From a virus, in IMG/VR virus record IMGVR_UViG_3300032093_010015, positions 1 through 30,361 of that record: a stretch of DNA of 30,361 nucleotides. One strand, given 5' to 3'. The position numbers and the translations under genes are program-made. Below are positions 1,972-30,361 of this stretch, piece after piece. The notes beneath the pieces are model-generated. The model worked only from the letters and a program-made list of their open reading frames with translations. It was not told where the DNA came from and did not search any database. Position 1 is the stretch's first letter, and each line of letters opens with the position of its first letter.

Positions 1972-1988
1972 AACAACACATCCTTAAA

Positions 1989-5594: not shown

Positions 5595-5605
5595 TACTCA
5601 CCTCA

Positions 5606-9145
<3,540 letters not shown>

Positions 9146-9164
9146 ATCTGCCTCTACATGCAAC

Positions 9165-9204
9165 AAAACGTGGGGAAGAAATGACGCATCATTCCCCACG
9201 TTTT
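9165..9204 (-). terminator. Intrinsic terminator-like hairpin between two giant genes
   Basis: Perfect 12-bp arms AAAACGTGGGGA / TCCCCACGTTTT enclose a 16-base loop. The A-tract on one side and T-tract on the other make it plausible in either direction. It starts 13 bases after the stop of the 1140-aa gene and ends about seven bases before the SD of the 1179-aa gene. It would therefore end or attenuate transcription between them. Confidence 0.75.
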
Positions 9205-9217
9205 AAAATACTAATTA

Positions 9218-12200: not shown

Positions 12201-12640
12201 CTTCGCCATACTTTTCCAGCTTTTGAGCCCAAGTATTGCCACAATGGAGATACAGGTTCGGGTACATATGCAGCGGCAATTGGGTCAACAGGTTTTACTG
12301 GCTCAAATGGCGGTGCGCCAGGCGGAACTGGAGAACTTACAGACATCACCTCTGGTTCTGCTGGTGTTGGTGTTGGTGTTGGTTCTTGTTCTTTTAATTT
12401 AGTTTTTCTATTGTTTAAATTTTCGCTACGTTCACTTTTCTTACCACCTACAATTCGCCTTGTGACTGTAGTTGTTTCTTCAACTACATCACCTACGTTT
12501 GGCACTCTTGCTATTCTTGCTTTTCTAATATTCCCTTTTGCAAAAGGTTTATTTGATGCATACTGCGTCATGCCAGCCGACGCACTGCTTACGCCTGAAT
12601 TACCAGGCATTTTTTTAATTTCAGAAAATATTTTGCTCAT
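9218..12640 (-). CDS. 1140-aa basic protein with Pro/Gly/Met-rich C-terminal repeats
   Basis: ATG at 12640; only a weak AGAAAGA precedes it. It is the first giant gene after the 73-aa gene and is followed by a terminator hairpin. The N-terminus is low complexity with a PTPTPTP linker near 85-95. A charged coiled coil lies at about 142-190, and a hydrophobic segment AAIALGVASLKPWQLF near 220-237 is preceded by Arg/Asn/Lys. The C-terminal 500 residues are built from repeats. MRSAG..HL.GGYRGG occurs three times. A block with MMKSMMKAFG plus a TPPPIGGGGIRKPQP-type sequence occurs twice, and IGIMPLPNIPRPIRKP occurs three times. An IIGPNGAMQAAQAGA motif near 795-813 matches the neighbouring 1179-aa protein. 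No known family. The Arg/Gly- and Pro-rich repeats suggest multivalent binding to nucleic acid or protein. Confidence 0.88.
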   Translation of the reverse strand: MSKIFSEIKKMPGNSGVSSASAGMTQYASNKPFAKGNIRKARIARVPNVGDVVEETTTVTRRIVGGKKSERSENLNNRKTKLKEQEPTPTPTPAEPEVMSVSSPVPPGAPPFEPVKPVDPIAAAYVPEPVSPLWQYLGSKAGKVWRRKEDRQAREYERLVEREQALIEQNEKKIKTLKDQIDQSGKAKDNYAARKSTEIEAGNVKAQDATNFVIRNRKNLRNAAIALGVASLKPWQLFDVEDEKPKSSNDWYNQAVEAGKKYLSNSKSESKDKTSSSSTNAFGNEIPRKMNSAFYDDFMQRKQSRKEQEIKDFLSRRKQKSNTSNSKQLPTFIRGVSTQKRMIKKSSNTKNNVVDDIIDVMNQYITPNTNLIHGTSRKTKEYAPGVMSSAKKYGQIAARENRKTYGEILDYGKQLVDLVSQESKKGIGNRSKKISISIPATEYTPAFSQTTNVPSMKDLATRAKTVGERKRTGRYDESNAIERALQFVRDWGESIVPTPKPKLTGGLKDTYMYRTAPNKKGEWVSIYADMPKGPRKQMREDQVAQGIPIASRKNDMQIWETGTMKPTSTWKPQKQVKDKMVYDPQLKRYVSTRQKDSNDITDFEQYSDAKSIKKGKNMTKGKSMPKPSRRDLYGHASMGGRAMMKSMMKAFGQMQTPPPIGGGGIRKPQPGTPRPIRKPQPGTPPIGIMPLPNIPRPIRKPQPVTPPISGGVHQAPGEINLGSNGFFKPIGKSMRKSVSRMRSAGIEHLLGGYRGGKKMAKSSMSKRTRRITKNNQMPTPTPGLSTAGQYAMPTANLIIGPNGAMQAAQAGAMRGQPQNPLYPSMNFQEPRRTMSPKQIQRMETFATQAPPQPTSSSQTPQPSPQPLHFETPAQSKLLSMLQSYNQYNPKPRVDYNDSRYNNMQQATRQPTQPAKPSTYSFPKQNRSANGSMQGAMQGQKSYKSGTGGTSGMMKSVSSMRSAGTRHLVGGYRGGRAMMKSQDASGWGKILAGTNPRANQQAWIKANKPSMGGRAMMKSMMKAFGGQMQTPPPIGGGGIRKPQPDTPPIGIMPLPNIPRPIRKPRPNTPPIGIMPLPNIPRPIRKPQPGKPPMIGKSMMKSVSSMRSAGTRHLVGGYRGGSKLFKSATPTLATRNFRAKYQ
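9285..9790 (-). repeat. Repeat block A at the 3' end of the 1140-aa gene
   Basis: Two copies of a roughly 68-bp sequence encoding MRSAGTRHLVGGYRGG lie at 9285-9352 and 9719-9786. Between them are two tandem copies (about 9380-9515) of a roughly 66-bp unit encoding PIGIMPLPNIPRPIRKP. Long stretches look identical at DNA level, so duplication or gene conversion is recent. Confidence 0.9.
10374..10740 (-). repeat. Repeat block B, diverged copy of block A
   Basis: A diverged copy of the YRGG unit (10374-10440) is followed by the PLPNIPRPIRKP unit (about 10530-10590). Next come the TPPPIGGGG unit (about 10655-10682) and MMKSMMKAFG with GGRAMM. The order matches block A. Confidence 0.85.
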
Positions 12641-13019: not shown

Positions 13020-13048
13020 ATAATATAAGAAATAAGAAAATTGTGCAA
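13020..13048 (-). promoter_or_regulatory. Sigma70-type promoter for the leftward 73-aa/giant-gene unit
   Basis: On the minus strand TTGCAC (13043-13048) is followed after exactly 17 bases by TATTAT (13020-13025). Transcription would begin about 25-30 bases before the ATG at 12985. Spacing is ideal, with five of six matches at -10. An overlapping plus-strand TATAAT (13019-13024) lacks a good -35. Confidence 0.6.
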
Positions 13049-13073
13049 TACCACACAAAAGGAGACGTATTGT

Positions 13074-13682
13074 ATGAATAAATCACGCACATCACCAGTT
13101 GTTATTGATAAGCGAGAACGTGCAGTGCAAGCACTTGAATTGCGCAAAGCGGGTATATCATACGATTTAATTGCACAACGATTAAACTATTCAAATCGCA
13201 CTGCCGCATATCGTGCTGTAAGTAGACTTTTGTCTGCAACTGAAAAAGAGGCATCGAACGATTTGCGAGAAGTGGAATTGCGACGTTTAGACGACTTGTT
13301 TTTGTCAGTATACCAAAAAGCAAGAAACGCCGCTGACCCATTGCAATTGCAAGCAGTTGACCGATGTTTACGCATTATGGAACGTCGTGCCAAAATTGCT
13401 GGTATTGATGCACCCGAAAAAACACAAACCGATGTGCGTCAAGTTATCAAAGTGGTATACGAAGATGTTCAGTACGCCGATGATTTTGATGATGAGCCAA
13501 GTCAGGCACAACAAATGCAACATGCAGGGTTACTTGCTATGGGTGCCAATACAGAGGTGTCTGATGAGGAGTGGGAGGAATATGAGGATGACGATGAAGA
13601 GTGGGGTGATGATGATACGGCACAAAATACAGACGAATTATCGCCTATTGACAGCACCGTCTCTGTCAATCATACCAAGTAA
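13074..13682 (+). CDS. Helix-turn-helix protein, terminase small subunit-like
   Basis: The start at 13074 (MNKSRTS...) is chosen because AAAGGAG precedes it by about nine bases; a TTG start at 13041 has no SD. The 202-aa product has a basic helix-turn-helix at about residues 25-50 (AGISYDLIAQRLNYSN). A helical region with a repeated ELRRLD / DRCLRIMERRAKIAG pattern follows to about 113. The tail (134-190) is very acidic, with Glu/Asp/Trp runs. This arrangement, including the RRAKIxGxDAP sequence, is typical of phage small terminase/HTH proteins that recognise pac or cos DNA before packaging. The family call rests on pattern recognition. No large terminase lies next to it in the window, so a regulatory DNA-binding role remains possible. 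It opens the rightward four-gene block. Confidence 0.7.
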   Translation: MNKSRTSPVVIDKRERAVQALELRKAGISYDLIAQRLNYSNRTAAYRAVSRLLSATEKEASNDLREVELRRLDDLFLSVYQKARNAADPLQLQAVDRCLRIMERRAKIAGIDAPEKTQTDVRQVIKVVYEDVQYADDFDDEPSQAQQMQHAGLLAMGANTEVSDEEWEEYEDDDEEWGDDDTAQNTDELSPIDSTVSVNHTK

Positions 13683-14640: not shown

Positions 14641-15093
14641 ATGGCTAAACAAAACGAATTGATTGAGCAAAAGACATTGTTTGAATTCTTGGCGATGATT
14701 GAATCGCAAGAACCAATGTTACAGTATTTGTTTCACGTGCCAAATGGTGGTCATCGTCACCCTGTGGTAGCGGCGCAAATGAAGTCTGCTGGTGTCAAAC
14801 GAGGCGTGCCTGATTTGTTATTTCCAATTGGGTTTGGTCAGTATCATGGTCTTGCTATCGAAATGAAAGCAGGGGTTAATCGAACTACCAAAGAACAACT
14901 TGTGTGGCTTGATGTACTACAAGCACAAGGATGGAAAACAGATGTGTGTTATGGATGGGTGCGTGCGGCAATTACTATTGTTGAGTACATTGGTCGTGAC
15001 CCCAAAAAATACAATCTTGATATGGCACTTGATGCATATGACAGACAACATGCTAAAATAAAAGTGCCTCGCAAAAATTCCAAAAACGGTTAA
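14641..15093 (+). CDS. VRR-NUC domain nuclease
   Basis: The 150-aa product fits a stand-alone phage VRR-NUC domain, a PD-(D/E)xK fold. HVPNGG lies at 32-37, and RGVPD at 54-58 gives the catalytic Asp58. LAIEMK at 71-76 gives Glu74 and Lys76 of the ExK motif, with Gln86 and Trp90 following in the TxxQxxWL helix. Such enzymes cut branched or structured DNA and are common in phages, where they may act in replication, recombination or packaging. The SD GAAAGGAAC lies about six bases before ATG 14641. A strong hairpin directly precedes the SD, so expression probably depends on read-through. The C-terminus is Lys-rich. The gene ends at a convergent terminator. Confidence 0.9.
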   Translation: MAKQNELIEQKTLFEFLAMIESQEPMLQYLFHVPNGGHRHPVVAAQMKSAGVKRGVPDLLFPIGFGQYHGLAIEMKAGVNRTTKEQLVWLDVLQAQGWKTDVCYGWVRAAITIVEYIGRDPKKYNLDMALDAYDRQHAKIKVPRKNSKNG

Positions 15094-15749: not shown

Positions 15750-16406
15750 TTACTCTTGGTCGTATGGTTTGCGACGACCATCGTCTTCTACGTACTTATC
15801 ATAGCACGTGCCACACACGTTTGAGAGTGTGCCTCCATAATGTAAGGGAAGTAAATCATCTTCCCATACAAGTGAATCGCACTTTTCGCACTCAACCTTC
15901 TTCCCTTTCAGGTTTTCCAGTTCTGCGAAAACTGTTTTTAATGCTTTGAGCATCACATCAATGTGAGGCTCTTCCAAGCGAGCGTATTGAAACGCTCCTG
16001 TTGGAACCCCTGAGATAGCTGAAAGCAGGTCAACAACCTCGTTGACCTTTGGCATAAATACTTCTTGGCGGTACACCTCCTTTTGAACAACGATGCGTTG
16101 CTGTTCCTTACTTGCCTCAACTTGCTTGTCGAGGCGAGTGCGATACTCATCCCAACGCATAAACAAGTGCTTAATGTACACAAATTCTTGGCGGTTTTGT
16201 CCCACCAAGTCCACCTTGATATACATGCCACGGTTGTCCTTGTCGGCTGGGAGATACTTAGTTTCCCAGCGATACTTGTGCTTGTAGTGCGGTTGCACAT
16301 CCAGCACAACCACACAGTCCGCACTCCATGGCACGTCTGCTAAGCCTTGATAGCTTGCAGAAAGTGCCCATTTTTGCCCTACTTCCAGTTGGCTGAATTT
16401 AGCCAT
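15750..16406 (-). CDS. Phage protein with C-terminal zinc ribbon (218 aa), paralogue of the 174-aa gene
   Basis: SD AGAAAGGAAC and a dedicated promoter (16438-16466) support ATG 16406. Residues 1-95 match the 174-aa neighbour. Shared positions include MAKF..LEVGQ.WALS, DVPW, LDV.PH, RG.Y.KV and HLFMRWDEY..RL. A helical middle follows. Unlike the paralogue, it carries a C-terminal putative zinc ribbon: Cys173-x2-Cys176 and Cys198-x2-Cys201. The shared N-domain is small and mixed alpha/beta. I recall similar uncharacterised proteins in tailed phages but no function. A nucleic-acid or protein-binding role through the zinc ribbon is inferred. The two genes look like a tandem duplication in which one copy gained or lost the ribbon. 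Confidence 0.85.
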   Translation of the reverse strand: MAKFSQLEVGQKWALSASYQGLADVPWSADCVVVLDVQPHYKHKYRWETKYLPADKDNRGMYIKVDLVGQNRQEFVYIKHLFMRWDEYRTRLDKQVEASKEQQRIVVQKEVYRQEVFMPKVNEVVDLLSAISGVPTGAFQYARLEEPHIDVMLKALKTVFAELENLKGKKVECEKCDSLVWEDDLLPLHYGGTLSNVCGTCYDKYVEDDGRRKPYDQE

Positions 16407-16516: not shown

Positions 16517-17041
16517 TTACTTGTTGTCGGCTTGTATTAACGCCTCTGATTCGGCGTGTTGCAACAAACTCAACAACAAGTCGATTGCTGGCTCGTACTC
16601 TTTAACAAGTAACCCCTTGAGTGGGTACGAACTAATCACCTTTTCACCGTGAAGATAATTCACGATTTTGGCAATTTGGTCTAGTTTTGGTTGCATTACA
16701 GTTTGACTGTAAGCAAGCCGTTCAGAAACCGCTTGATTATTTCGGTCACGCAGTTCCGTTTGTGCCTTAAGTCGTTGAGAATATTCATCCCAACGCATGA
16801 ACAAGTGCGGTACATACGCAAACCGCTCTTCTTGAAGCGTTTCGCTAAACCGATGCTCAACCTTGACGTACAACCCCCGCTCGTTTGCACGAACAGGAAT
16901 GTACTTATACCCACGTTGCTTGTGTGGTGTAACGTCAAGAATCTTGACGTGACGAGCGTTCCATGGCACATCAAGTGCATATGCACGCTCTCCACTTAAC
17001 GCCCACTCTTGACCTACTTCAAGGTCTTTAAACTTAGCCAT
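16517..17041 (-). CDS. Phage protein of unknown function (174 aa), paralogue of the 218-aa gene
   Basis: SD GTAGAAAGGAAC precedes ATG 17041 by about ten bases, and the promoter at 17081-17109 serves this gene alone. The N-terminal 95 residues align with the 218-aa protein, including a shared HLFMRWDEY near 85-93. The C-terminal half is a separate helical region with no Cys pairs, so the zinc ribbon is absent. Both paralogues keep the same promoter type, SD and terminator design. This points to duplication of a whole transcription unit rather than of the coding part alone. Function is unknown; early or accessory expression is inferred from the strong promoter. Confidence 0.85.
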   Translation of the reverse strand: MAKFKDLEVGQEWALSGERAYALDVPWNARHVKILDVTPHKQRGYKYIPVRANERGLYVKVEHRFSETLQEERFAYVPHLFMRWDEYSQRLKAQTELRDRNNQAVSERLAYSQTVMQPKLDQIAKIVNYLHGEKVISSYPLKGLLVKEYEPAIDLLLSLLQHAESEALIQADNK

Positions 17042-17080: not shown

Positions 17081-17109
17081 AATATACCATTTAATATATA
17101 TATTGTCAA
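17081..17109 (-). promoter_or_regulatory. Promoter for the 174-aa gene (family member 4)
   Basis: TTGACA (17104-17109), 17-base spacer (ATATATATATTAAATGG), TATATT (17081-17086) on the minus strand. The -35 overlaps the stop codon of the tail chaperone gene. No terminator separates the tail operon from this promoter, so tail transcripts may read through. Confidence 0.85.
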
Positions 17110-17519
17110 ATATTTTCTGGTGTAACTTCTGGTGTAACTTCTGGTGTAACTTCTGGTGTAACTTCTGGTGTAACTTCTGGTAATATATCAAGAATTAACG
17201 TTGGCCATGCAGGTGCAGTCCATTCGTCAATGTTGATTAATTGCGGATAATCTCGCAGTGCTTGACGATATTCACGGTATCGTTGACGGGTCAAGTCGTC
17301 AATATCAACATCAGGCATTTGCGTCCAATCAGTTGCAATCAATAGTTCATTTCGACGCAATCGAACCATTCGCATAGCTTCTTCTTTTGAATATGGCTCG
17401 TCAATCAATGAACTATCTTCAGGAATACTGCACTTTTTTCCATAATAATCAATGTGCACAATATGAACAGGTTGAGTTAAGTAAACACGTTGCACCCTAA
17501 ATAAAAATATACTACTCAT
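17106..17519 (-). CDS. Phage tail assembly chaperone (PF16778-like) with PEVT tail
   Basis: AAGGAG lies six bases before ATG 17519, nine bases after the preceding stop. The 137-aa product carries the family hallmark: RRNELLIATDWTQMPD at 55-70 followed by YREYRQALRDYP at 81-92. This is the RN.LL..TDWTQ.PD...YRQALRD signature of phage tail assembly chaperone PF16778. These proteins are usually encoded beside tail tip or fibre genes, as here. After residue 113 the protein ends in five and a half tandem PEVT units, which is unusual for the family. It is the last gene of the coupled tail operon. Confidence 0.85.
   Translation of the reverse strand: MSSIFLFRVQRVYLTQPVHIVHIDYYGKKCSIPEDSSLIDEPYSKEEAMRMVRLRRNELLIATDWTQMPDVDIDDLTRQRYREYRQALRDYPQLINIDEWTAPAWPTLILDILPEVTPEVTPEVTPEVTPEVTPENI
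17115..17180 (-). repeat. 12-bp tandem repeat, 5.5 copies, encoding (PEVT)n
   Basis: The unit TTCTGGTGTAAC (plus strand) is repeated five times without change, then half a copy. Because 12 is a multiple of three, copy-number changes stay in frame and alter only the length of the chaperone's C-terminal tail. Confidence 0.95.
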
Positions 17520-17528
17520 GTTTGCTCC

Positions 17529-18062
17529 TTATACTATTTTGACTAAATTTAAAATAGGAGAACCTGCAAATGACAAATCAGATGGAATGTTTATTATTTG
17601 CGTGTATTCATCACTGCTAAATGCAAATTGTACAATATCTCCTTCATCAACAAAAAACGTAAATGAAAAACTATTTGAACCATTTGAATTTACAGTGCCA
17701 CCTAACTGTTGCACCGTTTGAACTATGACATCGTTAACATACAACCTCATAATAGATTTAGTAATATCCTTGTCAAAAGACAATGTTATATTTGCATTGT
17801 AAAATCCTTGACGATTTACAAAAATAAACGGCGTTCCGTCTTGCCATGAAATGGGAATTTCAATACCGTTATCACGGTCTGAATTAATTAATGAATATCC
17901 CCATGATAAAAAAAGCCACGAATTTCCAAACACTTCTTGATTTTCTGAATAAGTAAGTGTGGTATACGATAGTTCGTTTGTAAACGATAGTGCTTGCGCC
18001 GATTGAATTCTATTAACACTGCGGGTTAACGCTAAAAGTTGACGTGCAGATTGGTCAATCAT
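17529..18062 (-). CDS. Tail-associated protein with C1q/TNF-like jelly-roll appearance
   Basis: The ATG overlaps the upstream TGA in an ATGA (18059-18062), so translation is coupled to the Gp37-like gene. Residues 1-25 are probably a helical attachment region. Residues about 75-155 show an all-beta pattern: a GFYNANITLSF strand at 86-96, MRLYVNDVIVQTV near 105-117, then a Ser-rich turn. SFSFTFFVDEGDIVQFAFSS follows at 131-150. This G.Y.....L.F...L.VN......SFSF...V..GD.VQF.. pattern resembles C1q/TNF-like jelly-roll domains found on phage tail accessory and receptor-binding proteins. The homology call is by pattern only. Position between tail tip and chaperone genes supports a tail-fibre or tip role. 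Confidence 0.5.
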   Translation of the reverse strand: MIDQSARQLLALTRSVNRIQSAQALSFTNELSYTTLTYSENQEVFGNSWLFLSWGYSLINSDRDNGIEIPISWQDGTPFIFVNRQGFYNANITLSFDKDITKSIMRLYVNDVIVQTVQQLGGTVNSNGSNSFSFTFFVDEGDIVQFAFSSDEYTQIINIPSDLSFAGSPILNLVKIV

Positions 18063-19273
18063 TGCGTATATGCCTCCGACACTCGCATTTGAGTAACTAT
18101 TTGTTCAGCCTTATTTGTAATAGTAATAGATATACCATTAATGCGCACATCAACAATAGAGCCAAATGCGTTGATTGTTACAAAATCTCCATATCCCCAG
18201 TCAACACCAAACAAAAAACCTGGTGAGTCTTGCACGGTGGCATATACAGAGTACACAGGATAATTAATAGGCTCTTTCAAATATTTAGTTGCTTCTCCAA
18301 TTAAATCAGATGTTTTCGATTGCAATAATACTTCTCGATATGCAAACGGAGAATTGGCAATGCGTGTTTTATCAATCACAGGAGCACTTGCTGAAATAGT
18401 TGGAGTTGTACCAGAAAGCCCTTGATACACAGAAATAACTGATGTTTTTTCTTCTTGCCAATCAATTATCAAACGAATATCCTGCAATTGACTAGACGTA
18501 TCACTTAATAATACTGCTTTATTGTTTGCGTTTACAAAACGCCTGTCTAATCCTCTTTGATTAGCAAATTGCGTAAATACATATTGATTTGTACTTGTAG
18601 CAATAGTATCAAAATAGACAGGATACAATGTTTCATTAACATCTACAGGAAACTGTGTCATTTGAGATAATTCTTGTAACGCAGTTAAAAGATTTGCATA
18701 TGCAAATGCAATGCCTTTACTGCTGTAATGAGTAATTAAATAACCGTAATTACTTAATTGTTTGCCTTCGCTAAAATTTGGTAAACGACGAATGCTAGAA
18801 TTTGAACCTATGTTATTTTGCACTAAATCGTACATAATTGCAGAGTTTGTAACATTTTTATATGCAGTTTGTGGACTGTTGCCAAATTGCGCACTAGTAA
18901 TTCTACTTGCAAGCAAATAGTTTGTGTCATATGCGGTCATTTTAACAACAAACGAACCAGTTGATTCACGAAATTGTTCAATAGACCGAACAAACCATAT
19001 TGTGTCTAGCAATAGTGTGCGTTGATTGCCTATAGTGCGATAAATAGCAAGAATGGTGTCTTTTTTTAACATTCCGTATCGTGACATAAATGTTAAAACC
19101 GCCGCACTATTTGAGCCACCGCTTAATCGAATGTAACATGCACCAATTTCGCCAACAGCACGAGTAATAGACAACTCAATAAATAAATTAAAATCCACAA
19201 TATTAAACGGTGCAATAATATTTCCTGAACTATCACACACAAAAATTTCATATTTTGCATTTGGAAATATCAT
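18059..19273 (-). CDS. Siphovirus ReqiPepy6 Gp37-like tail protein
   Basis: The 404-aa product overlaps the upstream giant gene by an ATGA (19270-19273). It starts with Y.I.V.DSSGNI.AP.N..DF near 8-30, then L.I.RAVGEIGACYIRL. A central region follows with TLLLDTIWFVRSIEQ (about 86-100) and MTAYDTNYLLASR (about 112-124). The C-terminus has INYPVYSVYATVQDSPGFLFGVDWGYGDFV and ends ...QIVTQMRVSE. This layout (beta-rich hub entry, D.NYLL..R, then G.DW..GD.V) matches the Siphovirus Gp37-like family (PF14594), which behaves as a tail-tip/baseplate hub protein. It directly follows the Dit-like gene, as expected. Confidence 0.75.
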   Translation of the reverse strand: MIFPNAKYEIFVCDSSGNIIAPFNIVDFNLFIELSITRAVGEIGACYIRLSGGSNSAAVLTFMSRYGMLKKDTILAIYRTIGNQRTLLLDTIWFVRSIEQFRESTGSFVVKMTAYDTNYLLASRITSAQFGNSPQTAYKNVTNSAIMYDLVQNNIGSNSSIRRLPNFSEGKQLSNYGYLITHYSSKGIAFAYANLLTALQELSQMTQFPVDVNETLYPVYFDTIATSTNQYVFTQFANQRGLDRRFVNANNKAVLLSDTSSQLQDIRLIIDWQEEKTSVISVYQGLSGTTPTISASAPVIDKTRIANSPFAYREVLLQSKTSDLIGEATKYLKEPINYPVYSVYATVQDSPGFLFGVDWGYGDFVTINAFGSIVDVRINGISITITNKAEQIVTQMRVSEAYTQ

Positions 19274-22200
19274 AATCCTGCCTTTGTCGTACCAAAAAAC
19301 ATGTTATTAGCGTCAAACGACCAAAACCGTGGATTGTAGTTGATAGTAATATTCATTCCTGCTTGCGCATGTATTCCAATAATGTTAATGCGATAATCGT
19401 CATACGATTGCGTATATTTTCCTGCAGAATTGTTTGCACCAAGCAATATCCAATCTACAAAATTTGATGTTGGGCTAATGAAAGAAATCATATTTCCTCG
19501 AATATTTGATGTAATAGAACGTTGCCCTGGCAATAAATTAATGATAATTTCCTCATATGCTAAAACTAACAACCCAGAATTGTCAAAACGAACTCGTGCG
19601 CCTGTTTCTGTTTGATACAATTCGTAAATAGTTTTATTTGATGCGCCATTTCTAATGCGAATAATTGGGTAAACCGATGCGTTTCCTCGTATACGTAGTG
19701 AAAAATATTGCATCTTGCTGGAAATTGTATTTACATTTACTGCATTGTTTAAAAACCCATGATGAACAATAGCAATATTCGAACCTGAAATTCCGTCCAA
19801 TACATTTGTAATTGGATTAACCGCATATTTACGCATGCGATTTGTAGACGCAATTGCAGTTGTCTGAGAGCGAATAATGTTTGAACTATTACGATTAACT
19901 GGAAAAATAACATCTGCATTTACGATAGTTTGAAGATTTCCTGATATGGTTGAACCTTCCGCATATGCTAAACTGTGTGTGACAGATTCATTATTTAGTG
20001 TTCCAGTAAAAACACCGCCAATCAACAATTTATCACCACTGCCCACATATCCATTAATAGGATTAATGTCAGTAATATCTCGCACCAAATTAACTGTGTT
20101 GTTAAATCCATTGTTTGCATACGATGTGCCGACAATGGGTGAAGCATACGAATCAAATACTTTTCCGTTTGCTATTAATGGCGTCACTCTAGCAACACGT
20201 CCAACGTTTCGTTTTACAGAATCATACGATGTTGTAGTTCCAACATATGATGCGTCAACCCAATGAGTAAAATTACCACTAATAATAAGAGTTCCATTTT
20301 GCGTAGTAGTTATATCGTAAATTGGTCCATCAGTTAACCCCATAGGTTGCCAATCGGTGTTCACAAATGATGGTAAACCTGTATCAAGCAGTGGGTATTC
20401 ATCATACACGTATTCAATGTTAAAATATCTTCCGTTTTTTAAACCGTTTGTATATGGGCTTCCATCAATACTTGCCAATTGCATAATTGCATTAGAAAAT
20501 GTGTCAATTACTCGGTATTGACCATCAACAATTGTATTGCCATTTATATCAATACTAAAAACAGTAATGACACAACCTGAGTATAATTGTTCAGCAAACT
20601 TTGTGGCAGTGCCAAAAGGTCGAACAATTCCTGTTTCTGTAATAGTAATTTGACCAATGCCTGGCATTGAACGTATGCAATATCCACCAACAAATGATTC
20701 GTTAGAAAAATCTGAAATTGTAGTTGCCGATAATGTTACAACCATTGTTGTACTATCAACAATATTATTAATTGTGCCAATTTTAGACCAAGAACCATCA
20801 GTATCATTTTGCACGTAAAAACCCGTACCATTCATGTTATTTCTATTTAAATAGTCATACACTAGATAGTCAAATCGGGTTCCTGAGCCACTAATAAACG
20901 CTTGCGTTCCACCTATTCCTCCAATGGTTACCTTTTGTACAATGCGACCTTCCATTCTTCCAATGAATTCCGAAAATACGTGTTTACGGTGTACACGAAC
21001 TTTTTGCGTAGTTAGTGTTCTGTCAATTGGCAAAACCGTGTACATTCTTGAAATGGTAAAATTCATTTCTACAATTTGACCAATAATATCGTTGTTTTCA
21101 ATGTTGAATGCGTTATTGTCTGAAGCATCTCGAGAACGCATTACATCACCAGGTATAATGTGGTATCTTAAAACGTTTTCAGTATATGCATATATTGTTG
21201 GATAAGAACGCCCTTGTGCGTTACTTACACCCAATAGGCTTCCAATTAAGTTAGGAGATGTAGCAACTCCAACTGCACCGCTAGAAGAGTTAATAGTAAT
21301 TTGAAGATTTGTATTATTTACAAGTGAAATGTTACGCCCTTCATTGTTTGCAGGTGTGTTTGCCCCATTAAATACGTACAAATTAGGATTAGGAGCATAA
21401 AAATATGATGACAACGATGTGCGTTGCGCTGGTTGCACAAGAGTAAATGTTTTTGTTGTTGTGTTTACTGTTGCAATTTTTCCAATTAACGAACTATTTA
21501 CGTTATAAACAGAATTTCCAACATTAATTAAATTATCACCAGCGTATGAACCAGCAACTTCTCCTTCGTTTATATATAATTCGTTATTTATACCAGAACC
21601 ATATGACAACATGTGAACCATATCTACGTTAGATACATTTGATGCATCTGCCCATATAAAATAACTGTCTACATTGTTTGTGTTGGCATATGGCATATTG
21701 GAAAAGTTTAATTGCGTATTGTTAATAGCACTTCCCAAAATGCCCATATATGCTCCATTAGTTCGCCACAACGCAGTGGTATTTGCAAACTGCGATACTG
21801 GCGCATTTGTCATTGTTACTAACGGGGAAATAGAATCTGATGAAATGTATTGATATGTTCCTGAGTAAGTAACAGTAGAATTTGATGCTAATACAGCTTG
21901 TATAGGAGAATTAGCACTATTAACCACACCAATACTTGTTACGCCATCAGATTGAAATAATGTTTTTCCCACAAGTGTATACGCATCAGGTTGACCGTTA
22001 ACAGATACTAAATTACTTCCGTTTGTTACCGATATACGATTAAACAAATCTGTTGATTGCCTGTTTGAAGTACGTAATTGCATAGCAATTGTTGATGGTG
22101 CGTATATAATAACTTCGCCTAATGGGTCGTTAATATTTATTGTGGCGTTTGATGCAAGAATTAATTGATTTGTTCCCACGTCTACTACTGTGCCAATGTA

Positions 22201-25200
22201 AACGTAATTCCAATCAGTGCCTGATGTCGGTGTTCCCAACGTAAATATTGCTTGACCAATAAACGTGTTTAAACTTATGCCAGTACCAATAGTTGTGACA
22301 ATGTTTGATGACGTACTTGTATTGGTAATAGCAACAGTGGAAAATGTGTAACTATATGTAGATGCGCTCATTGCAGTGACTGCGCCAGACTCAAGCGTAG
22401 CAGATGTTGCACTTGATGCACTTTGTACTACGCCAATGTACGCACCTGCAATTGTGTATAGTGCACTGCCAACCAAATCAGTTGCAGTAGGCGTTCCTGC
22501 AACCGTGACTGAGCGAGAGCCCAATGCAACAGTAATCGTATTGCCAGCCGTTGTATTTGCACCAGTTTGTGTTGTATTGGCATAAATATATGTTGATGCA
22601 GTTGTGTTAATAAATCGTGGGTGCCGACTAAAATTTGCTTGAACATTACCTCGTCGTATTCCCATAAACTCACCTGTGTTGCGAAAAATGGCAACATTGG
22701 CTGGTGTGTTTGTTCCTGCTAATGTAAAAGATGGAGTTGACGCATGTCGGTAAAGTGCGTTTGTAGTGGTTGTGGCAGCCCCTTCTTCGAACGTTCCTGC
22801 TGTTGCGCTTGATGCACTTCGCACAATACCAATAAACAAACCTCCTACATTTGTATACAACGCACTTCCCACCAGTGATGTGGCTGTGGGCGTACCTGCA
22901 ACTGTGAATGCTGTATTACCTGCAACTGTAGAAATAATATTACCAGTAGTTGTTAGCGTGGCATTGTTTACAATAGTGTTACCAGTTCCAGAAAAAGGCA
23001 TGTGAATAAACGGCTCATTTGTGACATTACCTCGTGAGTTTGCTGTCAATGTAGCAGTATTAGTGGTTGCATTTTGTGTAACACTCGTTACATTTCCAAA
23101 AAACAAATCAAATGGATTATTGATATTGGTTGCGGCAAAGTACCTAAACAGTGACCGATTTAATAACGAGAATTGCGTAACTGATGTTGCACTGCCATAT
23201 GAATATCCTCCACCTACTACCGTTACTGATGTACTTGATGTACTTGTAGTAATTGTATTGAGCTTGGACGCATTTGCATACGCAAACGTGCCATTTGATA
23301 CGGTTGCTAATGCATTTGCAGTAAGTCGAATGCCATTAGTTGAGTACGTGTAGTTGACAATACCAATAAATGCGCCATCAGATGCACGGAATAACGCTTT
23401 ACCGTCTAACACCGATAATGCAATGCCTCCATTTTGCGTGTATGTTCCAATGTCGCTAGACGTGCTATTAAATGTAATAGTTCCAAGACTTGAATAATCC
23501 ATGTATGCAAATGATGAAGCAGTGTTTGCATTGTTAGACGTACCAAACAACAACGTTCCTGTTGTTCCAGCAGTTGTTGATGACCCCATGTATCGACCGT
23601 CTGGTCGAAATAATGATTTATTTTGAATGGTATTTGGAGAACCACTCAATGTGTACGAAAATCCAGCAGTCACTGCACTGGTGTTTGATAGTGAACGAAC
23701 CACTTGATTAAATGTAAGTGTATTTGTATTAGCTGTAGCAGTTACCGTTGCGTCATAGATTGGCTCTACTTGATGAATGCTCGGTATTGTACTGTCAAAA
23801 TCATCTGCTGCTTGGTCCCACGAAATTCGTGCTGTTTGCTCAACATTATATGGATTAGGCGAAACAGTGCGCACAACACCAATCACATCAGCAAAATAGT
23901 TGGCATCTTGCGATGCTTTAAGCGACTTTGATGCCTTGAGTATGGTTGCCGACCCACTTGTGTTTTGAACAACATTTCCATTGGAATCTGCGGTCAAGCC
24001 AGACAAGTACACATTACTTGAATCAATTATATTGTTGGGGGTTGCCCAATATGGCATGTATGAAACTTCAACATTAGAGCTGTTTACGGGAAATACTTGC
24101 TGTATTGTCCCAAGATATTGCAACACAGGATTTGATGCACTTGCATACGTGTACAATTCGTCATTTTTTTGATACGACGATGGTACATTTGTTTGAATAG
24201 TTACCGCTCGAACAATACTTAACGGAGTACCTCTATTGTCTAAATTTGGAAAATTATACATGTAATAAAACGTACCAGCGTATGTTGATGGGGCGTTGTT
24301 TAAAAATTGCACTACAGTATTGCTTAATGCTTTTTCCACGACACCAATAAATACGCCATTAGAGCGATATATGCGACGACCTATTAATTGATAGGCATTT
24401 ACCGTGCTGGTACTTGATAGCGTACCTCGATTTAAACTACTAGCCAACACGGTAATATTTGTGGTTGCGCCACTAAACGCAGAAATTGTAATAGTATTTG
24501 CGGTTGTACTGCTAATTGTTCCTATCCACGTCCACTGACCAGTGACATTCGGTTGAATGTTGTTAATGCTTGGTGGAGTATTCATTAAGTATGCATACAG
24601 TTCATATACATTTGCTCTTAACCCGACAGGTACAGGATTATTTATCACATTAATAATTGCATTTGCGCCACTGATAGTTGGTTGTGTTGACGACGTTTCC
24701 ATACCAAACGCAGTATTGGAAAGATATTCGTAACCAAGTTGACCGCCTAATGGAAACGCAAATTGATATGGATACCACGTTACATTGTTGTCGGTTGAAA
24801 CTGGTGAACCGCCACTGAGCCAATAATCAATATTACCCATCCAACTATATTGTTGTGCTGTAGTAGTGACAAGTGTTGTGTTTGTAAATCCATTGATAAC
24901 GCAGATAAATATCCATTTATTATTTTGAAATGTGTAGACGCTTCTTCCTACATCATATTGCGAAAATAATGTACCTGTTCCATTAACCAAGTTTGAGCCT
25001 GATTTGATTGTTCCTATACCTTTAACAAGTTTGGTTGAATTTGCATCGGGAAGTGTGTTTGTGGTATCAGGTAACGACCACCATTGACGTGAGGCATTGA
25101 TTACATCACCATAATAGTTTGTGCCAAGAGTATTTGTCCCTGTAGTTTTTCCAAAATATACAATTCTATCATTAACTCGTGCATAAAAATGCCTATTTGA

Positions 25201-28200
25201 AACAACAGTTATTCCTGATGAAATGGTTGTTCCTGACACAGAAAAACTATTAGTTGCTCCATCATTATCAAATATTGGCGCAATAGTACCAAAAGAATAC
25301 GACGCAAATACGTTACCGAACCCTGTAACAGCATCTGAACTAATAGTTGGGTCGTATGCAGTGGCTTTGACGCTAGAAGATGCGTCAAATTTGCGACGAA
25401 CAATAGAATTAAGAATTAAATTAGACCCCAATGAGTCAAAATTGACAATTGCTGCATCTGATGCTTTTGATGTGTATAGTGTATACGCATTATAGTTAGT
25501 GCCTAAATATTGAGTGGTACTTGTTGTGTATGATGATGGCGTTCTTAATTTTGCAACTCCCGATGGAAGCACTGTCGAATCTTCCACAACAGTTCGTAAC
25601 TGTCCACCTCTTAATAAATACCCATCGCCATCAGTGAATATTTTGTTTGTTATAACATTGAAATTTTCGTATATTTGATTGGTAGGCCACACAATCCAAT
25701 TGGTAACTGGTGTACGATTAACAGTTTTATTAATGTCAACTTTTGATTTACTATTTGTTGTTAACGTTATTGACCCGTTACCAGTAGTAGATACAGATGC
25801 AATTTGTTCACATTCCGCTGTTGTTTGACTACTTGGATAATACAGGTAAAAATAACTTCCTGCAGTGACTTCTGGTATGGAAAAATTAACTCTTTGCCCA
25901 CTTGTAGGTGAGCCATTAATGGTACTTAACGGATTCCCTCTGTTGTTTGTAGCAACAGAAACTAGTCCTTTAAATTTTGACAAAAAATCATTGGTAATCA
26001 CTTGACCAACATCAACAAACGCATTTCGTGTAAGCGTTAATTGTGTTGCATTATTTACTACTTTTACTTGTCCAATGTAAGAGCCATCACTTGTTGTTAG
26101 ATAATTACCCACCATATTAACTGTAAAATTAGTTTTATCACCCTTTACCACATCACTTGAAATGGAACATTGAATCTTACCTTGATTGTTTGTCCCTAAC
26201 GCAGTGGCAAATGTACTACCAACCAATGCTACTGATGTTGACCCATCAACAAATGACATTTTGCCAACGTTTTTGGCATTTGGAACATATGCATACAAAG
26301 AAGCACGGTATTCAATGTTTTCACCTGATGAATCAATTACTGCAAACACGTTTGCGCCGTTTGCTTTTTTGTCCGTGGTTAACGATTTAATATCGCCTAA
26401 TACACTAAATCCAACTTCAGTAAATTGAACTTGCGCAGGGGATGCAAGCAACGCTACAGTTGATGATGTTGCACCACCAGCAATAGAAGCAATTTGTCCT
26501 ACATAAATACCAACATCAGTAAAAATTAATTTTCCAATATCTGCTGTGGTAAATGGTGTGCCATCAAATAAAACACCACTACTATTAAATGCATTTCCAA
26601 CAGTTACCAAATGACTTCCTACATTAGTAGTAAGTGTGCCAAATCGACTAACGCCTAATTGATACCCCACAAAACCAGCGTACTCTAACGAGTTAATATT
26701 GTTCTGCGTAACAATATTGGGATTGATAGTGTACACATTTGATTGAGATGATGTACGAGCAAACGCAGACGGACCTCGATATGCAGGATATGGCGCAAAT
26801 GTGTTGGTTAACGTGTCGTCAAGTGGAATAATACTTGTGTTTACATCACCACCAACAAATGTGTATCCAGATGGTGATTGTGTAATTGCATTAAGTCCTT
26901 GGTTGTTAATTTGATTAAAGAGTAGTGAACGATAGGTATTTGATACTGAATCATATTCAAACTGACTATCAACAGGGTATGCTACGATGCGACCATTGTC
27001 GTTCATAACAAAACGTGCAATACGAAAATATGGATACTGCGTTGATATATTATTGCTACCAAATCGAACAGTTGTATTGACTTTTCCGTCATTTACAAAA
27101 ACATCGGATGTATTAAGATTGGTGTTTGGTGTGCGGTCGCCAAAATCAATAACTTGATAGAAGTCTCCGACAACCAAAATACTGTTAGCACTTTCTTGAT
27201 AGATTGCATTTACCGATGCGTTGCCTACCGCACTGCCACCTGTAAGTTGAAATAATTGTTTTCCATATACTTGTGTGGGATTTGTGTTTATATCAACGGT
27301 AGACAACGTTACTTTTTGATACGGTTGCGATGCATAAGTGGTAACTGCGTTTTCTGTTAAAGTGCATTGCGTTGACGATTGAACGCTTGCAATTTTTCCT
27401 AAATAATCACCGCCAACAAACAAAAACTTTCCAACATCTGAATTTTGTATTGCTTCAAAGTCAGAAAAAGTAACAATGGCACTGACAGTGTTTGATGTCA
27501 ATGTTCCCAAACCCGTATTAAAACTAATTTTGCTTGCAGGTGATTTTGTATCAGGTGTAAATCCTGATACATAGAAAAATGCAATAGTTGAAAACGGATA
27601 CGCAAAATTACCACCCACCACTAATGTTGACACATTACCACTTGGCGACTGCAACCATCCAATAGCTTTTGGAATTGATGGAGCAAACTGCAAATCCCAA
27701 AATGCATTTTGAGATTGTAATTGAGGCGTGCTTTCGCCATTTACAATCAACTCGTCAGCAGTTAATGTCATTTCGTTTTTGTGAAAGTTTAACGGAGTCC
27801 ATTCAGATGCATTCCCTAATTTGTAGTACACGCTTGCAGACTCGTTTAACGTTGATGACGGGCTAACATTTTGCGTAAACGGTACTTCTGTATAAAAATA
27901 TGGGTCAGCACTTAAAAAACGCAAACCAAGAACTTCAGTAAAACTTTGTGTTTGCACGCCACTAAACTCTAATCCGCCGATATATGTAATGCGAGTTACC
28001 ACAGGCGTGTCTGCGCCTGTGTATCGCAACATTCTTTCGCCTTGTTGCGCAAGTTGGTCGAACTTAAGCAAGTTAATTAATGAACGACGATTTGCGTGCA
28101 ATCCAACCCATGATTTGGCGGATATTGTGACATTGAACTGCATGTTTCGCATTCGTGCAACTTGTCGTTGCACAAATCCACCGTCAGTGATGCCATATTC

Positions 28201-30361
28201 CAATGCAGTTGTTGCTATTTCAGGCATACCCGTACCAGAAATTGTCGGCTCTACCACAACATTGATGTTATCGGTGTCTAATGAAGCCCAAAATCCAGTG
28301 GTAAATGTTTGTGTCAACAATGAACTTTGTGATAAACCTGGTACTGATACGCCATATACAGGTTTGGCTTCGTTTCGCCATTGATACTGTTGCCGAAACC
28401 GAGGCGTTCCCATACCATGACCAGATTGAGATGAATCATATTCATCAAAGTTTGCATGCCACGCACCGTCATTTGTAAAATACGGAAACGTGTTGCTGTA
28501 TGTGCCACTTTGCGTAGGCATGGTGTCTGCCCATATTGCGCCAGGAATGTCACCGTCTACATACGAAAAATCGACATCATCCCAATTCCAGTCACTAAAT
28601 TGCGGAGGATTGACATACGTGTTTAATGAGTTACCGTAATAATCGTATGACCGCCAAATCATCCCTGAATCAACAAATTGTATGCCATCAATATACAAGT
28701 CTGCATCACTTGTTGTGCCTGTATATTGAAATCGCAATTGCATGCGTGATGTGTCACCCGACGGTGGCGTTACCAAAAACTTTGTGCGCAATCCCATGCG
28801 TTTTGCGTTTAATTGTGTTGCGTTGCTGGCATCTAATGTACCTAACGATGTACCTGCATTAAATGCAAGTTTTCGGAACGCACTTGCAGTAAGAGAAATA
28901 AATGCCAAGTTATAAAATGTTATAGAGTTTCCATTGATTGTTTTAATTTCTCCTACAAACTCATAATTTGTAGTGTAAATACAATCACCTTGCGCAAAGC
29001 CAGAAGCGTTTGATATAGTTGCCGATGCATTACCTCGCTGAGTGGTAATAGTCAACCCTACTGGCTGTATTGCATCTGATGTAATGTTGACCAGCATCAC
29101 TTTCCATCTTGCACCAGTGTCAGTGTATGTGGCATTTGGATTGATAAGATTAGGTGATGACAAATACCAATCAAGATACAAATGATGCTTATATGTGTTA
29201 TTTGCAAATGTGTTATTGGTAATACCGAAATATGGCGCACTACAATTAATTCCCATTGACGCTGGTAAGAAATTTGTATTTGATGAGGGATTACAACTAA
29301 ATGCACTAATTGCACCTATTGGATTGTCTGGATATGATTGCACATTAGTAGATACCATACGATAAAAATCAAATCCAATTGGCGTTGTAGTGGCTTTTTG
29401 TTGAATGCGTATTTCTGTTTGTGTTGCGACAGAGTATTGATAACTTTCATTTGTTACAGCAATAAGAGCGTTACTTGCTAACGTTGCAGTTGTATTGTTT
29501 GATGAATTTACAACAGTACCAATTTCTTCACCTTTCATAGTAAACAACTTTCTACCCACCAAAAATGGCGCAGTAGGAAATCCACTTACTGTGATTGATG
29601 TGCTATTGATATTTGTAGTAATTTTATTGTCACCATCATACAAATACGCAACATTGTTTACGGTTACAGTTGAATTGTTAACAAGAGTTGCTGATGTTGC
29701 GCTTGAGGCACTTAGAACCTTGCCTATAAATTGTTTATTGGTTGTGTATAAATTTTTTCCTACCAATGCAGTTGCAGTTGGCACGCCACTAATTGTGATT
29801 GACGTACTTCCTGATGTTGCAGTAATGCGACCAGTTCCGCTATTTGCAGCATTATCAGCAATACCTTGGTCTGCAACTCTTCCCAAAAATTGCTTTTCAC
29901 CATTTGGCTGGTTAATGTCGGTAAGAACATACAAATCTGTACCTGCTGGACATTCAGTCAAAAACGATGTGTTAACACCTTTGACAATGTATTCACCATC
30001 GACCGCAAACGGATACATGTAAATTTTACCCGTGCACAATGTTGGAGTTAATACAGTATCAACATTTACTTGATTAATTACTTTGTGAATAAACACTGTT
30101 GTGCTTGTTCCAGAGTTAGCAGATGCAGGAACAATTGATGCAAGGACGTACCGTTTAACAGACGTGGTGTCCATACTGTACCACACAGCCCACCCACGAA
30201 TAGTTGCATTTGCAGTTGCGTCTTGACCTCCGCCAATAACCACCTTTATGGATTTACTAGGATTACTTGTGATACCTGGAAGGCTAGAAAAATACGGTGT
30301 GGTATGACCTCTTTTAGCATCCATTGTCGGATAGGCGACAATGTCTTGGCTATTAGTGTTG
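19270..30361 (-). CDS. Giant Dit-like tail protein with nested insertions (partial, start beyond window)
   Basis: The frame stays open through the right edge, reading ...SQDIVAYPT before the Met at 30324. That Met has no SD, so the gene starts outside. Numbering is from it (3684 aa). Residues 160-300: two beta-repeats. About 370-560: a carbohydrate-binding-like region ending DADLYIDGIQF, itself interrupted by a repeat. About 685-820: Dit N-terminal (Sipho_tail) signature with SLINLLK...LRYTG, ...GLRFLSADPYFYTE. Propeller-like blades (the clearest ending ..LVVGGNF or similar) near 886, 1034, 1142, 1309, 1553, 3334 and 3411. Repeats fill most of 1180-3330. About 3538-3684: Dit C-terminal galectin-like signature with PIIRIRNG and FVDWILLGANN. 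It likely forms the tail-tip ring and adhesin. The Dit call is by motif; blade assignment is tentative. Confidence 0.8.
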   Translation of the reverse strand, partial: NTNSQDIVAYPTMDAKRGHTTPYFSSLPGITSNPSKSIKVVIGGGQDATANATIRGWAVWYSMDTTSVKRYVLASIVPASANSGTSTTVFIHKVINQVNVDTVLTPTLCTGKIYMYPFAVDGEYIVKGVNTSFLTECPAGTDLYVLTDINQPNGEKQFLGRVADQGIADNAANSGTGRITATSGSTSITISGVPTATALVGKNLYTTNKQFIGKVLSASSATSATLVNNSTVTVNNVAYLYDGDNKITTNINSTSITVSGFPTAPFLVGRKLFTMKGEEIGTVVNSSNNTTATLASNALIAVTNESYQYSVATQTEIRIQQKATTTPIGFDFYRMVSTNVQSYPDNPIGAISAFSCNPSSNTNFLPASMGINCSAPYFGITNNTFANNTYKHHLYLDWYLSSPNLINPNATYTDTGARWKVMLVNITSDAIQPVGLTITTQRGNASATISNASGFAQGDCIYTTNYEFVGEIKTINGNSITFYNLAFISLTASAFRKLAFNAGTSLGTLDASNATQLNAKRMGLRTKFLVTPPSGDTSRMQLRFQYTGTTSDADLYIDGIQFVDSGMIWRSYDYYGNSLNTYVNPPQFSDWNWDDVDFSYVDGDIPGAIWADTMPTQSGTYSNTFPYFTNDGAWHANFDEYDSSQSGHGMGTPRFRQQYQWRNEAKPVYGVSVPGLSQSSLLTQTFTTGFWASLDTDNINVVVEPTISGTGMPEIATTALEYGITDGGFVQRQVARMRNMQFNVTISAKSWVGLHANRRSLINLLKFDQLAQQGERMLRYTGADTPVVTRITYIGGLEFSGVQTQSFTEVLGLRFLSADPYFYTEVPFTQNVSPSSTLNESASVYYKLGNASEWTPLNFHKNEMTLTADELIVNGESTPQLQSQNAFWDLQFAPSIPKAIGWLQSPSGNVSTLVVGGNFAYPFSTIAFFYVSGFTPDTKSPASKISFNTGLGTLTSNTVSAIVTFSDFEAIQNSDVGKFLFVGGDYLGKIASVQSSTQCTLTENAVTTYASQPYQKVTLSTVDINTNPTQVYGKQLFQLTGGSAVGNASVNAIYQESANSILVVGDFYQVIDFGDRTPNTNLNTSDVFVNDGKVNTTVRFGSNNISTQYPYFRIARFVMNDNGRIVAYPVDSQFEYDSVSNTYRSLLFNQINNQGLNAITQSPSGYTFVGGDVNTSIIPLDDTLTNTFAPYPAYRGPSAFARTSSQSNVYTINPNIVTQNNINSLEYAGFVGYQLGVSRFGTLTTNVGSHLVTVGNAFNSSGVLFDGTPFTTADIGKLIFTDVGIYVGQIASIAGGATSSTVALLASPAQVQFTEVGFSVLGDIKSLTTDKKANGANVFAVIDSSGENIEYRASLYAYVPNAKNVGKMSFVDGSTSVALVGSTFATALGTNNQGKIQCSISSDVVKGDKTNFTVNMVGNYLTTSDGSYIGQVKVVNNATQLTLTRNAFVDVGQVITNDFLSKFKGLVSVATNNRGNPLSTINGSPTSGQRVNFSIPEVTAGSYFYLYYPSSQTTAECEQIASVSTTGNGSITLTTNSKSKVDINKTVNRTPVTNWIVWPTNQIYENFNVITNKIFTDGDGYLLRGGQLRTVVEDSTVLPSGVAKLRTPSSYTTSTTQYLGTNYNAYTLYTSKASDAAIVNFDSLGSNLILNSIVRRKFDASSSVKATAYDPTISSDAVTGFGNVFASYSFGTIAPIFDNDGATNSFSVSGTTISSGITVVSNRHFYARVNDRIVYFGKTTGTNTLGTNYYGDVINASRQWWSLPDTTNTLPDANSTKLVKGIGTIKSGSNLVNGTGTLFSQYDVGRSVYTFQNNKWIFICVINGFTNTTLVTTTAQQYSWMGNIDYWLSGGSPVSTDNNVTWYPYQFAFPLGGQLGYEYLSNTAFGMETSSTQPTISGANAIINVINNPVPVGLRANVYELYAYLMNTPPSINNIQPNVTGQWTWIGTISSTTANTITISAFSGATTNITVLASSLNRGTLSSTSTVNAYQLIGRRIYRSNGVFIGVVEKALSNTVVQFLNNAPSTYAGTFYYMYNFPNLDNRGTPLSIVRAVTIQTNVPSSYQKNDELYTYASASNPVLQYLGTIQQVFPVNSSNVEVSYMPYWATPNNIIDSSNVYLSGLTADSNGNVVQNTSGSATILKASKSLKASQDANYFADVIGVVRTVSPNPYNVEQTARISWDQAADDFDSTIPSIHQVEPIYDATVTATANTNTLTFNQVVRSLSNTSAVTAGFSYTLSGSPNTIQNKSLFRPDGRYMGSSTTAGTTGTLLFGTSNNANTASSFAYMDYSSLGTITFNSTSSDIGTYTQNGGIALSVLDGKALFRASDGAFIGIVNYTYSTNGIRLTANALATVSNGTFAYANASKLNTITTSTSSTSVTVVGGGYSYGSATSVTQFSLLNRSLFRYFAATNINNPFDLFFGNVTSVTQNATTNTATLTANSRGNVTNEPFIHMPFSGTGNTIVNNATLTTTGNIISTVAGNTAFTVAGTPTATSLVGSALYTNVGGLFIGIVRSASSATAGTFEEGAATTTTNALYRHASTPSFTLAGTNTPANVAIFRNTGEFMGIRRGNVQANFSRHPRFINTTASTYIYANTTQTGANTTAGNTITVALGSRSVTVAGTPTATDLVGSALYTIAGAYIGVVQSASSATSATLESGAVTAMSASTYSYTFSTVAITNTSTSSNIVTTIGTGISLNTFIGQAIFTLGTPTSGTDWNYVYIGTVVDVGTNQLILASNATININDPLGEVIIYAPSTIAMQLRTSNRQSTDLFNRISVTNGSNLVSVNGQPDAYTLVGKTLFQSDGVTSIGVVNSANSPIQAVLASNSTVTYSGTYQYISSDSISPLVTMTNAPVSQFANTTALWRTNGAYMGILGSAINNTQLNFSNMPYANTNNVDSYFIWADASNVSNVDMVHMLSYGSGINNELYINEGEVAGSYAGDNLINVGNSVYNVNSSLIGKIATVNTTTKTFTLVQPAQRTSLSSYFYAPNPNLYVFNGANTPANNEGRNISLVNNTNLQITINSSSGAVGVATSPNLIGSLLGVSNAQGRSYPTIYAYTENVLRYHIIPGDVMRSRDASDNNAFNIENNDIIGQIVEMNFTISRMYTVLPIDRTLTTQKVRVHRKHVFSEFIGRMEGRIVQKVTIGGIGGTQAFISGSGTRFDYLVYDYLNRNNMNGTGFYVQNDTDGSWSKIGTINNIVDSTTMVVTLSATTISDFSNESFVGGYCIRSMPGIGQITITETGIVRPFGTATKFAEQLYSGCVITVFSIDINGNTIVDGQYRVIDTFSNAIMQLASIDGSPYTNGLKNGRYFNIEYVYDEYPLLDTGLPSFVNTDWQPMGLTDGPIYDITTTQNGTLIISGNFTHWVDASYVGTTTSYDSVKRNVGRVARVTPLIANGKVFDSYASPIVGTSYANNGFNNTVNLVRDITDINPINGYVGSGDKLLIGGVFTGTLNNESVTHSLAYAEGSTISGNLQTIVNADVIFPVNRNSSNIIRSQTTAIASTNRMRKYAVNPITNVLDGISGSNIAIVHHGFLNNAVNVNTISSKMQYFSLRIRGNASVYPIIRIRNGASNKTIYELYQTETGARVRFDNSGLLVLAYEEIIINLLPGQRSITSNIRGNMISFISPTSNFVDWILLGANNSAGKYTQSYDDYRINIIGIHAQAGMNITINYNPRFWSFDANNMFFGTTKAGL
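21840..23760 (-). repeat. Best-conserved part of the beta-repeat array in the giant tail gene
   Basis: Consecutive 60-90-residue units share TVAGTPTA..LVG.ALYT...G..IGVV.SASSATSATLESGA or close variants. The clearest copies are encoded at about 22360-22590 and 22740-22990, with more diverged ones from 21840-22330 and 23000-23710. Units extend in weaker form from about 20600 to 26600. Confidence 0.85.
29430..29845 (-). repeat. Two beta-repeats near the N-terminus of the giant tail gene
   Basis: Tandem units (29630-29845 and about 29430-29629) encode GSTSITISGVPTATALVG..LYT and NSTSITVSGFPTAPFLVG..LFT. Both are followed by IG.V and a Ser/Thr-rich ATL strand. The first resembles the distant copies near 22400-22900 more than its own neighbour. 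Confidence 0.8.

Follow-up and report, generated by a model that had tools for sequence, protein, structure and literature searches.

The window analysed here, the whole of the 30,361-base virus contig IMGVR_UViG_3300032093_010015, ends in a giant minus-strand reading frame, and the question is whether this frame encodes a distal tail protein (Dit) whose two conserved domains are parted by a very large insert. A Dit is a small structural ring protein, normally of less than 300 residues and sometimes with one or two added modules. The frame and its main parts are:

19270..30360, minus strand: giant Dit-like open frame, 3,696 codons, 5′ end beyond the contig edge
28360..30360, minus strand: N-terminal extension, residues 1-667 of the window frame
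27871..28254, minus strand: Dit-like N-terminal (belt) block, residues 703-830, ending ...FLSADPYFYTE
19711..27870, minus strand: insert between the two Dit-like domains, about 2,720-2,735 aa, hypervariable among relatives
19318..19698, minus strand: Dit-like C-terminal (galectin-like) block, residues 3555-3681, RGNASVYPIIRIRN...RSITSN...YNPRFWS

No interruption was found over all 3,696 codons up to the contig edge, past which the frame continues. Counted from the ATG at 30324 it comprises 3,684 aa; this ATG is probably internal. In an alignment the first codon of the window frame corresponds to about residue 162 of a complete relative (L007:3397-14760), and thus about 161 residues are missing at the 5′ end of the gene. 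The full-length protein is expected from this alignment to have about 3,860 aa (about 400 kDa). An earlier note on this DNA had placed both Dit signatures at opposite ends of one frame, which was confirmed: in its numbering FLSADPYFYTE lies at residue 803 and PIIRIRN...FVDWILLG at 3553-3629, a few residues off the positions it gave, with a spacing of 2,735 residues. It had also described an N-terminal extension of more than 680 residues. The extension is present and this figure is too short, since the gene is 5′-truncated and 757 aa precede the Dit block in the complete relative.

Viral contigs were searched with Tal and with each of the two blocks, which yielded a small family of relatives; its complete or nearly complete proteins all occupy the same position among the tail genes, the Dit slot:

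L007/G002: 3,787 aa, complete relative (L007:3397-14760)
G008: 3,771 aa, relative
L010/G001: at least 3,708 aa, relative
L015/G006: 2,892 aa, more distant relative
L048/G009: 1,776 aa, more distant and shortest relative

The L007 protein starts with MGLWDILVPSEPGVLHNLIANPSFEYD. Both terminal blocks are kept across the relatives, and the region between them is free to vary in both length and sequence; this insert measures 957 aa in L048, 1,944 in L015, about 2,720-2,735 in the window and up to about 2,765 in the family. L007 and L015 share 63-80% identity in the N block, mostly less than 30% in the middle of the protein and 77% over the last 60 residues. An assembly accident as origin of the frame was ruled out by the same uninterrupted frame in independent contigs (3,787, 3,771 and at least 3,708 aa), and it is also opposed by the uninterrupted frames of the two more distant relatives (2,892 and 1,776 aa). 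A fusion of two unrelated genes was considered and rejected as well. No relative was found among cultured phages when 50,697 phage records were searched by tblastn with the blocks, the 2,892-aa homolog and the Tal, nor as a prophage in one scan of bacterial and archaeal genomes, and a PDB sequence search with the block and Tal profiles gave nothing meaningful.

Three genes follow the giant frame in the window:

18059..19273, minus strand: Tal / baseplate hub, Gp37-like (PF14594 E 5.8e-11, phrog_538 E 1.5e-13)
17529..18062, minus strand: 177-aa protein after Tal, no family match in Pfam and PHROGs scans
17106..17519, minus strand: tail (fibre) assembly chaperone (PF16778 E 1.1e-14, phrog_4912 E 2e-12)

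In the window the start codon of the Tal gene overlaps the stop codon of the giant gene. The contig shows the Tal side of the giant gene only, and the placement between tape measure and Tal is seen in L007, L015 and L048. In L007 a tail assembly chaperone (PF10109, 1e-5) and then a tape measure (PF20155, 1.9e-23) precede the giant gene, which a Gp37-like Tal (PF14594) follows, and in L048 the 1,776-aa protein is located between a tape measure (PF20155, 2.2e-21) and a Gp37-like protein (PF14594, 1.5e-9). In L015 the 2,892-aa protein is preceded by the C-terminal part of a long protein, called a tape measure from its position and resemblance, and followed by Tal. In the relatives no second ORF of Dit size (about 300 aa) separates the tape measure gene from that of Tal. 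The Gp37 family has ReqiPepy6 as its type phage, whose genes follow the same order (tape measure gp35, gp36, Tal gp37), and the giant gene thus fills the Dit slot.

To compare the two ends with Dits, 19 proteins of ordinary size from actinophages and one Paenibacillus phage were aligned and the alignment was split into N and C halves. These Dits were picked by their slot after the tape measure or by likeness to such proteins, not by likeness to the giant; Paenibacillus phage Lily was left out because of its contractile tail. With window-type sequences hhalign scored 50.3 for the N block against the N half and 44.8 for the C block against the C half, while the crossed pairs reached 18.3 and 14.3. 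After addition of the 1,776-aa and G008 homologs the scores rose to 59.6 (N, probability 96.4) and 57.5 (C, probability 96.5), with 9.0 and 15.3 for the crossed pairs. The best of 150 shuffles gave 19.7 (N) and 21.3 (C), reversed controls were likewise far below, and the correct-half matches thus exceed every valid shuffle 2.7- to 3-fold; a single shuffled control scored 130.6, an artefact from aligning 2 columns only, and was not counted. Sliding windows over the whole giant protein peaked at 781-960 against the N half and at 3601-3780 against the C half, the runners-up being overlapping windows only. The giant alignment has little effective diversity (before addition of the two homologs Neff was about 1.3-1.5), and the profile matches therefore speak for homology, not for structure. 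AlphaFold2 runs on the separate blocks with 4-6 relatives reached pLDDT values of 29.4 and 36.5 and gave no usable model.

Searches against family profiles agree with this comparison when single blocks are used. A whole-protein hmmscan of the window giant against Pfam and PHROGs gave chance-level matches only, including a PRC-barrel match with E 0.029. PF05709, the Dit family that the earlier note had named, likewise had no match in the whole window record or protein, but is the top Pfam match of the isolated N block of L048 (E 5.4e-4, 20.6 bits). The same block matches phrog_33 (1.9e-5) and phrog_202, both labelled distal tail protein Dit. For the isolated C block of L048 PF22768 (SPP1_Dit) is the top Pfam match (E 4.3e-4, 20.9 bits), and the isolated C block of the window has a single Pfam match, again to PF22768 (E 0.0027, 18.3 bits). 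The N block is also matched by phrog_106 (L015 1e-6, L007 2.9e-4), to which Zucker gp19 belongs (7e-47); the C-terminus of Zucker gp19 matches PF22768 below the cut-off. No match in the giant family reached the curated Pfam cut-offs for PF05709 and PF22768 (24.2 and 25). Such a cut-off is a convenience threshold and not a definition, as the Dits of Tuck and ReqiPepy6 miss PF05709 too. The profile comparisons show homology of both ends of the giant protein to the respective halves of Dit proteins, in the right order and specifically, and the earlier proposal of a Dit split by a giant insertion is supported at this level. The C block aligns from the very start of the Dit C profile onwards, which places the insert between the two Dit domains.

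Dits with added domains are known from other phages. Evolved Dits bind host saccharides via carbohydrate-binding modules (CBMs) (PMC7291167), and in siphophages of lactic acid bacteria they comprise 659 aa (OE33PA), 548 aa (BK5-T) and 512 aa (C41431) (PMC8540738; PMC9692632). In OE33PA, an Oenococcus phage, domains are inserted between the belt and the C-terminal domain (PMC8540738). Cryo-EM of gp58 of mycobacteriophage Corndog (583 aa) revealed an extra domain at 198-416 that separates Dit domain I from the C-terminal domain (PMC13252515). With the Dits of OE33PA, BK5-T and C41431 the giant would share the combination of belt, added domains and galectin domain in one Dit polypeptide, and with OE33PA and Corndog gp58 also the position of the insert between the two Dit domains. 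The insert of gp58 is, however, a single Rossmann-like domain of about 219 residues and not a giant arm. Compared to the evolved Dits of lactic acid bacteria phages, whose inserts have a few hundred residues, the giants carry inserts of about 957-2,765 aa, an N-terminal extension of 530-830 aa, repeats and propeller-like motifs, but no recognisable CBM family. Among ordinary proteins, Zucker gp19, Tuck gp18 and a Dit-like protein of phiScoe45 (280-291 aa) are profile-level homologs of the giant's ends in both halves, yet their halves are contiguous and their size is ordinary. ReqiPepy6 gp36 also has a PF22768 C-terminal domain (45 bits), but comprises 275 aa and has no insert.

Two further loci in cultured phages may hold related arrangements. 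ReqiDocB7 gp023 (L031:13207-15753), an enlarged protein of 848 aa that follows the tape measure as the giant does, carries a Rha78A-type Ig domain and may be a further enlarged Dit. The other locus comprises gp41 and gp42 of Microbacterium phage FuzzBuster (L021:10103-13596), where phrog_838 matches gp41 with its first 237 positions and the end of gp42 with positions 261-424. Here one tail-protein family is split over two adjoining genes and other domains lie in between, which may be a two-gene counterpart of a split Dit.

The N-terminal extension, 530-830 aa long across the family, opens with MGLWDILVP.EPGVLHN.IANPSFEYD in the complete relatives and ends with a D-A-x-LYIDG-Q strand and a Y-x-DGD-x-PGA-x-W motif. 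By eye these two closing motifs look CBM-like. No carbohydrate-binding family was recognised by Pfam in insert or extension, PF02018 (CBM_4_9) included. Within the extension of the window three copies of a 60-aa repeat are present. This repeat and a second type of motif mark the insert:

26862..27654, minus strand: propeller-like group 1, VVGGNF at 912, VVGDF at 1061, FVGGD at 1167 (sequence motifs)
21399..23466, minus strand: densest 60-aa repeat stretch, 8 copies, residues 2299-2988, consensus ITTSSSSNSVTVSGTPTAQSLVGKALYTSNGLFIGTIASASSTTQATLTANALITVTNAAY
20003..20321, minus strand: propeller-like group 2, IISGNF at 3357, LIGGVF at 3444 (sequence motifs)

An iterated HMM detected 17 copies of the repeat in the window protein (14 of them in the insert), 9 in L015 and 3 in L048, and gave no match on reversed or shuffled controls. 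The repeat core LVGxxLYTxxGxxIGxV resembles the PRC-barrel weakly (E 0.029), a likeness that serves as a lead only. The hhhGGxF motifs flank the insert in two groups, while L048 has five of them within 450 residues. The added length of the giants therefore lies mostly between the third and the fourth motif, and we infer that a propeller-like module may have been opened by the 60-aa repeat array. In the propeller-like region PF07494 matches one relative weakly (E 0.46).

Nucleotide comparison with L007 and L010 revealed blocks with sharp borders. The window gene is 100% identical to L007 over about residues 700-2300 (about 23460-28260), with abrupt borders, and about 74% identical to it in the Tal region. 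Towards L010 it is 100% identical outside about residues 700-2300 and 55-93% identical inside. This pattern suggests exchange of insert segments by recombination; part of it could reflect chimerism of the metagenome assembly in the window contig.

Taking these data together we conclude that the giant gene is with high probability the Dit of a siphophage whose conserved domains are parted by a very large insert, the insert and the extension being probable host-adhesion arms. Judged from sequence, it is an evolved Dit with interdomain insertion. The N-terminal belt and the C-terminal galectin-like domain would fold together, and six copies would form the ring that joins the tail tube to Tal. Insert and N-terminal extension would form six arms, each with about 3,000 residues, that project outward from this ring, and these arms, with their tandem 60-aa repeats and propeller-like strands, would most likely be the host-adhesion apparatus. 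Fold, hexamer, outward projection and adhesion are drawn by analogy; the adhesion role of six arms per virion would follow from the known evolved Dits and from the insert being the most variable part among the tail-tip genes examined. A bolder version, which we regard as tentative and rather doubtful, is that the whole adhesion device resides within the Dit. Six arms of 400 kDa (about 2.4 MDa) would then replace separate receptor-binding proteins, with a split propeller-like module opened by PRC-barrel-like repeats that expand, contract and recombine. Since a gene for a tail-fibre chaperone lies downstream of Tal, a separate fibre may exist as well, and the Dit as sole adhesin is put forward as a possibility only.

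That same chaperone gene, which may indicate a separate fibre, also fits the view that the protein is a Dit whose insert is mainly architectural, a sleeve of the tail tip or an enlarged baseplate scaffold that holds other receptor-binding proteins in place and does not itself bind the host. The 60-aa repeats could serve as spacers, and no binding module was recognised. We nevertheless consider this rather unlikely, since the insert is far more variable than the adjoining Tal and seems to be swapped among strains, as would be expected of parts in contact with the host. Much less probable is that the protein is no Dit but a giant tail fibre or a tape-measure-linked adhesin, its ends stemming from unrelated families. 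The sub-threshold Pfam scores and the failed structure prediction could be read in this way, but each block matches the correct Dit half only, at 2.7- to 3-fold over every valid shuffle, and in gene order the giant takes the Dit slot, with no further ORF of some 300 aa lying there.

We likewise see only a slight chance that the polypeptide is cut after synthesis, by a protease or by intein-like removal, so that in the virion a small Dit would be accompanied by a large second protein. FuzzBuster with its phrog_838 halves in two adjoining genes may be taken as a precedent. Against cutting, no intein or protease domain was recognised, and the middle varies in content and length unlike an intein, a reading that was considered and rejected. 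An artefactual frame or mosaic middle, to which the abrupt blocks of 100% identity between contigs of different samples might point, is scarcely credible, because several independent contigs, including those of the divergent 1,776- and 2,892-aa proteins, all keep the frame open.

Interdomain insertion in a Dit is already known, and the giant is several-fold larger than the largest example that we found described in the open-access literature (659 aa). To judge from the open-access literature searched, what is new is the giant size, together with the repeat array and a natural series of sizes. A ring protein whose length ranges from 1,776 to about 3,800 aa while its core is kept and its insert swapped would imply that the junction of belt and galectin domain tolerates inserts several times larger than those that we found described, and the family offers a natural size series for testing how host-recognition modules join tail tips. 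Giant Dits escape family searches because neither half passes the Pfam cut-offs in so long a protein.

Further genes of the contig were noted. At 1-12640 (minus strand) four large ORFs of at least 657, 1201, 1197 and 1140 aa have no convincing Pfam match, and the 1140-aa one has no PHROGs match either. Their order is kept in L011, the identity is very uneven along each of them, and the N-terminal parts are rich in Thr and Pro. The products of 15750-16406 and 16517-17041 (minus strand) are adjoining paralogs, 38.6% identical over 171 aa. On the opposite strand a cassette at 13041-13682 and 14641-15093 (plus strand) encodes two proteins, of which one matches phrog_645 (RNase E by its label, 1.2e-26) and the other phrog_824 and Holliday-junction-resolvase families.
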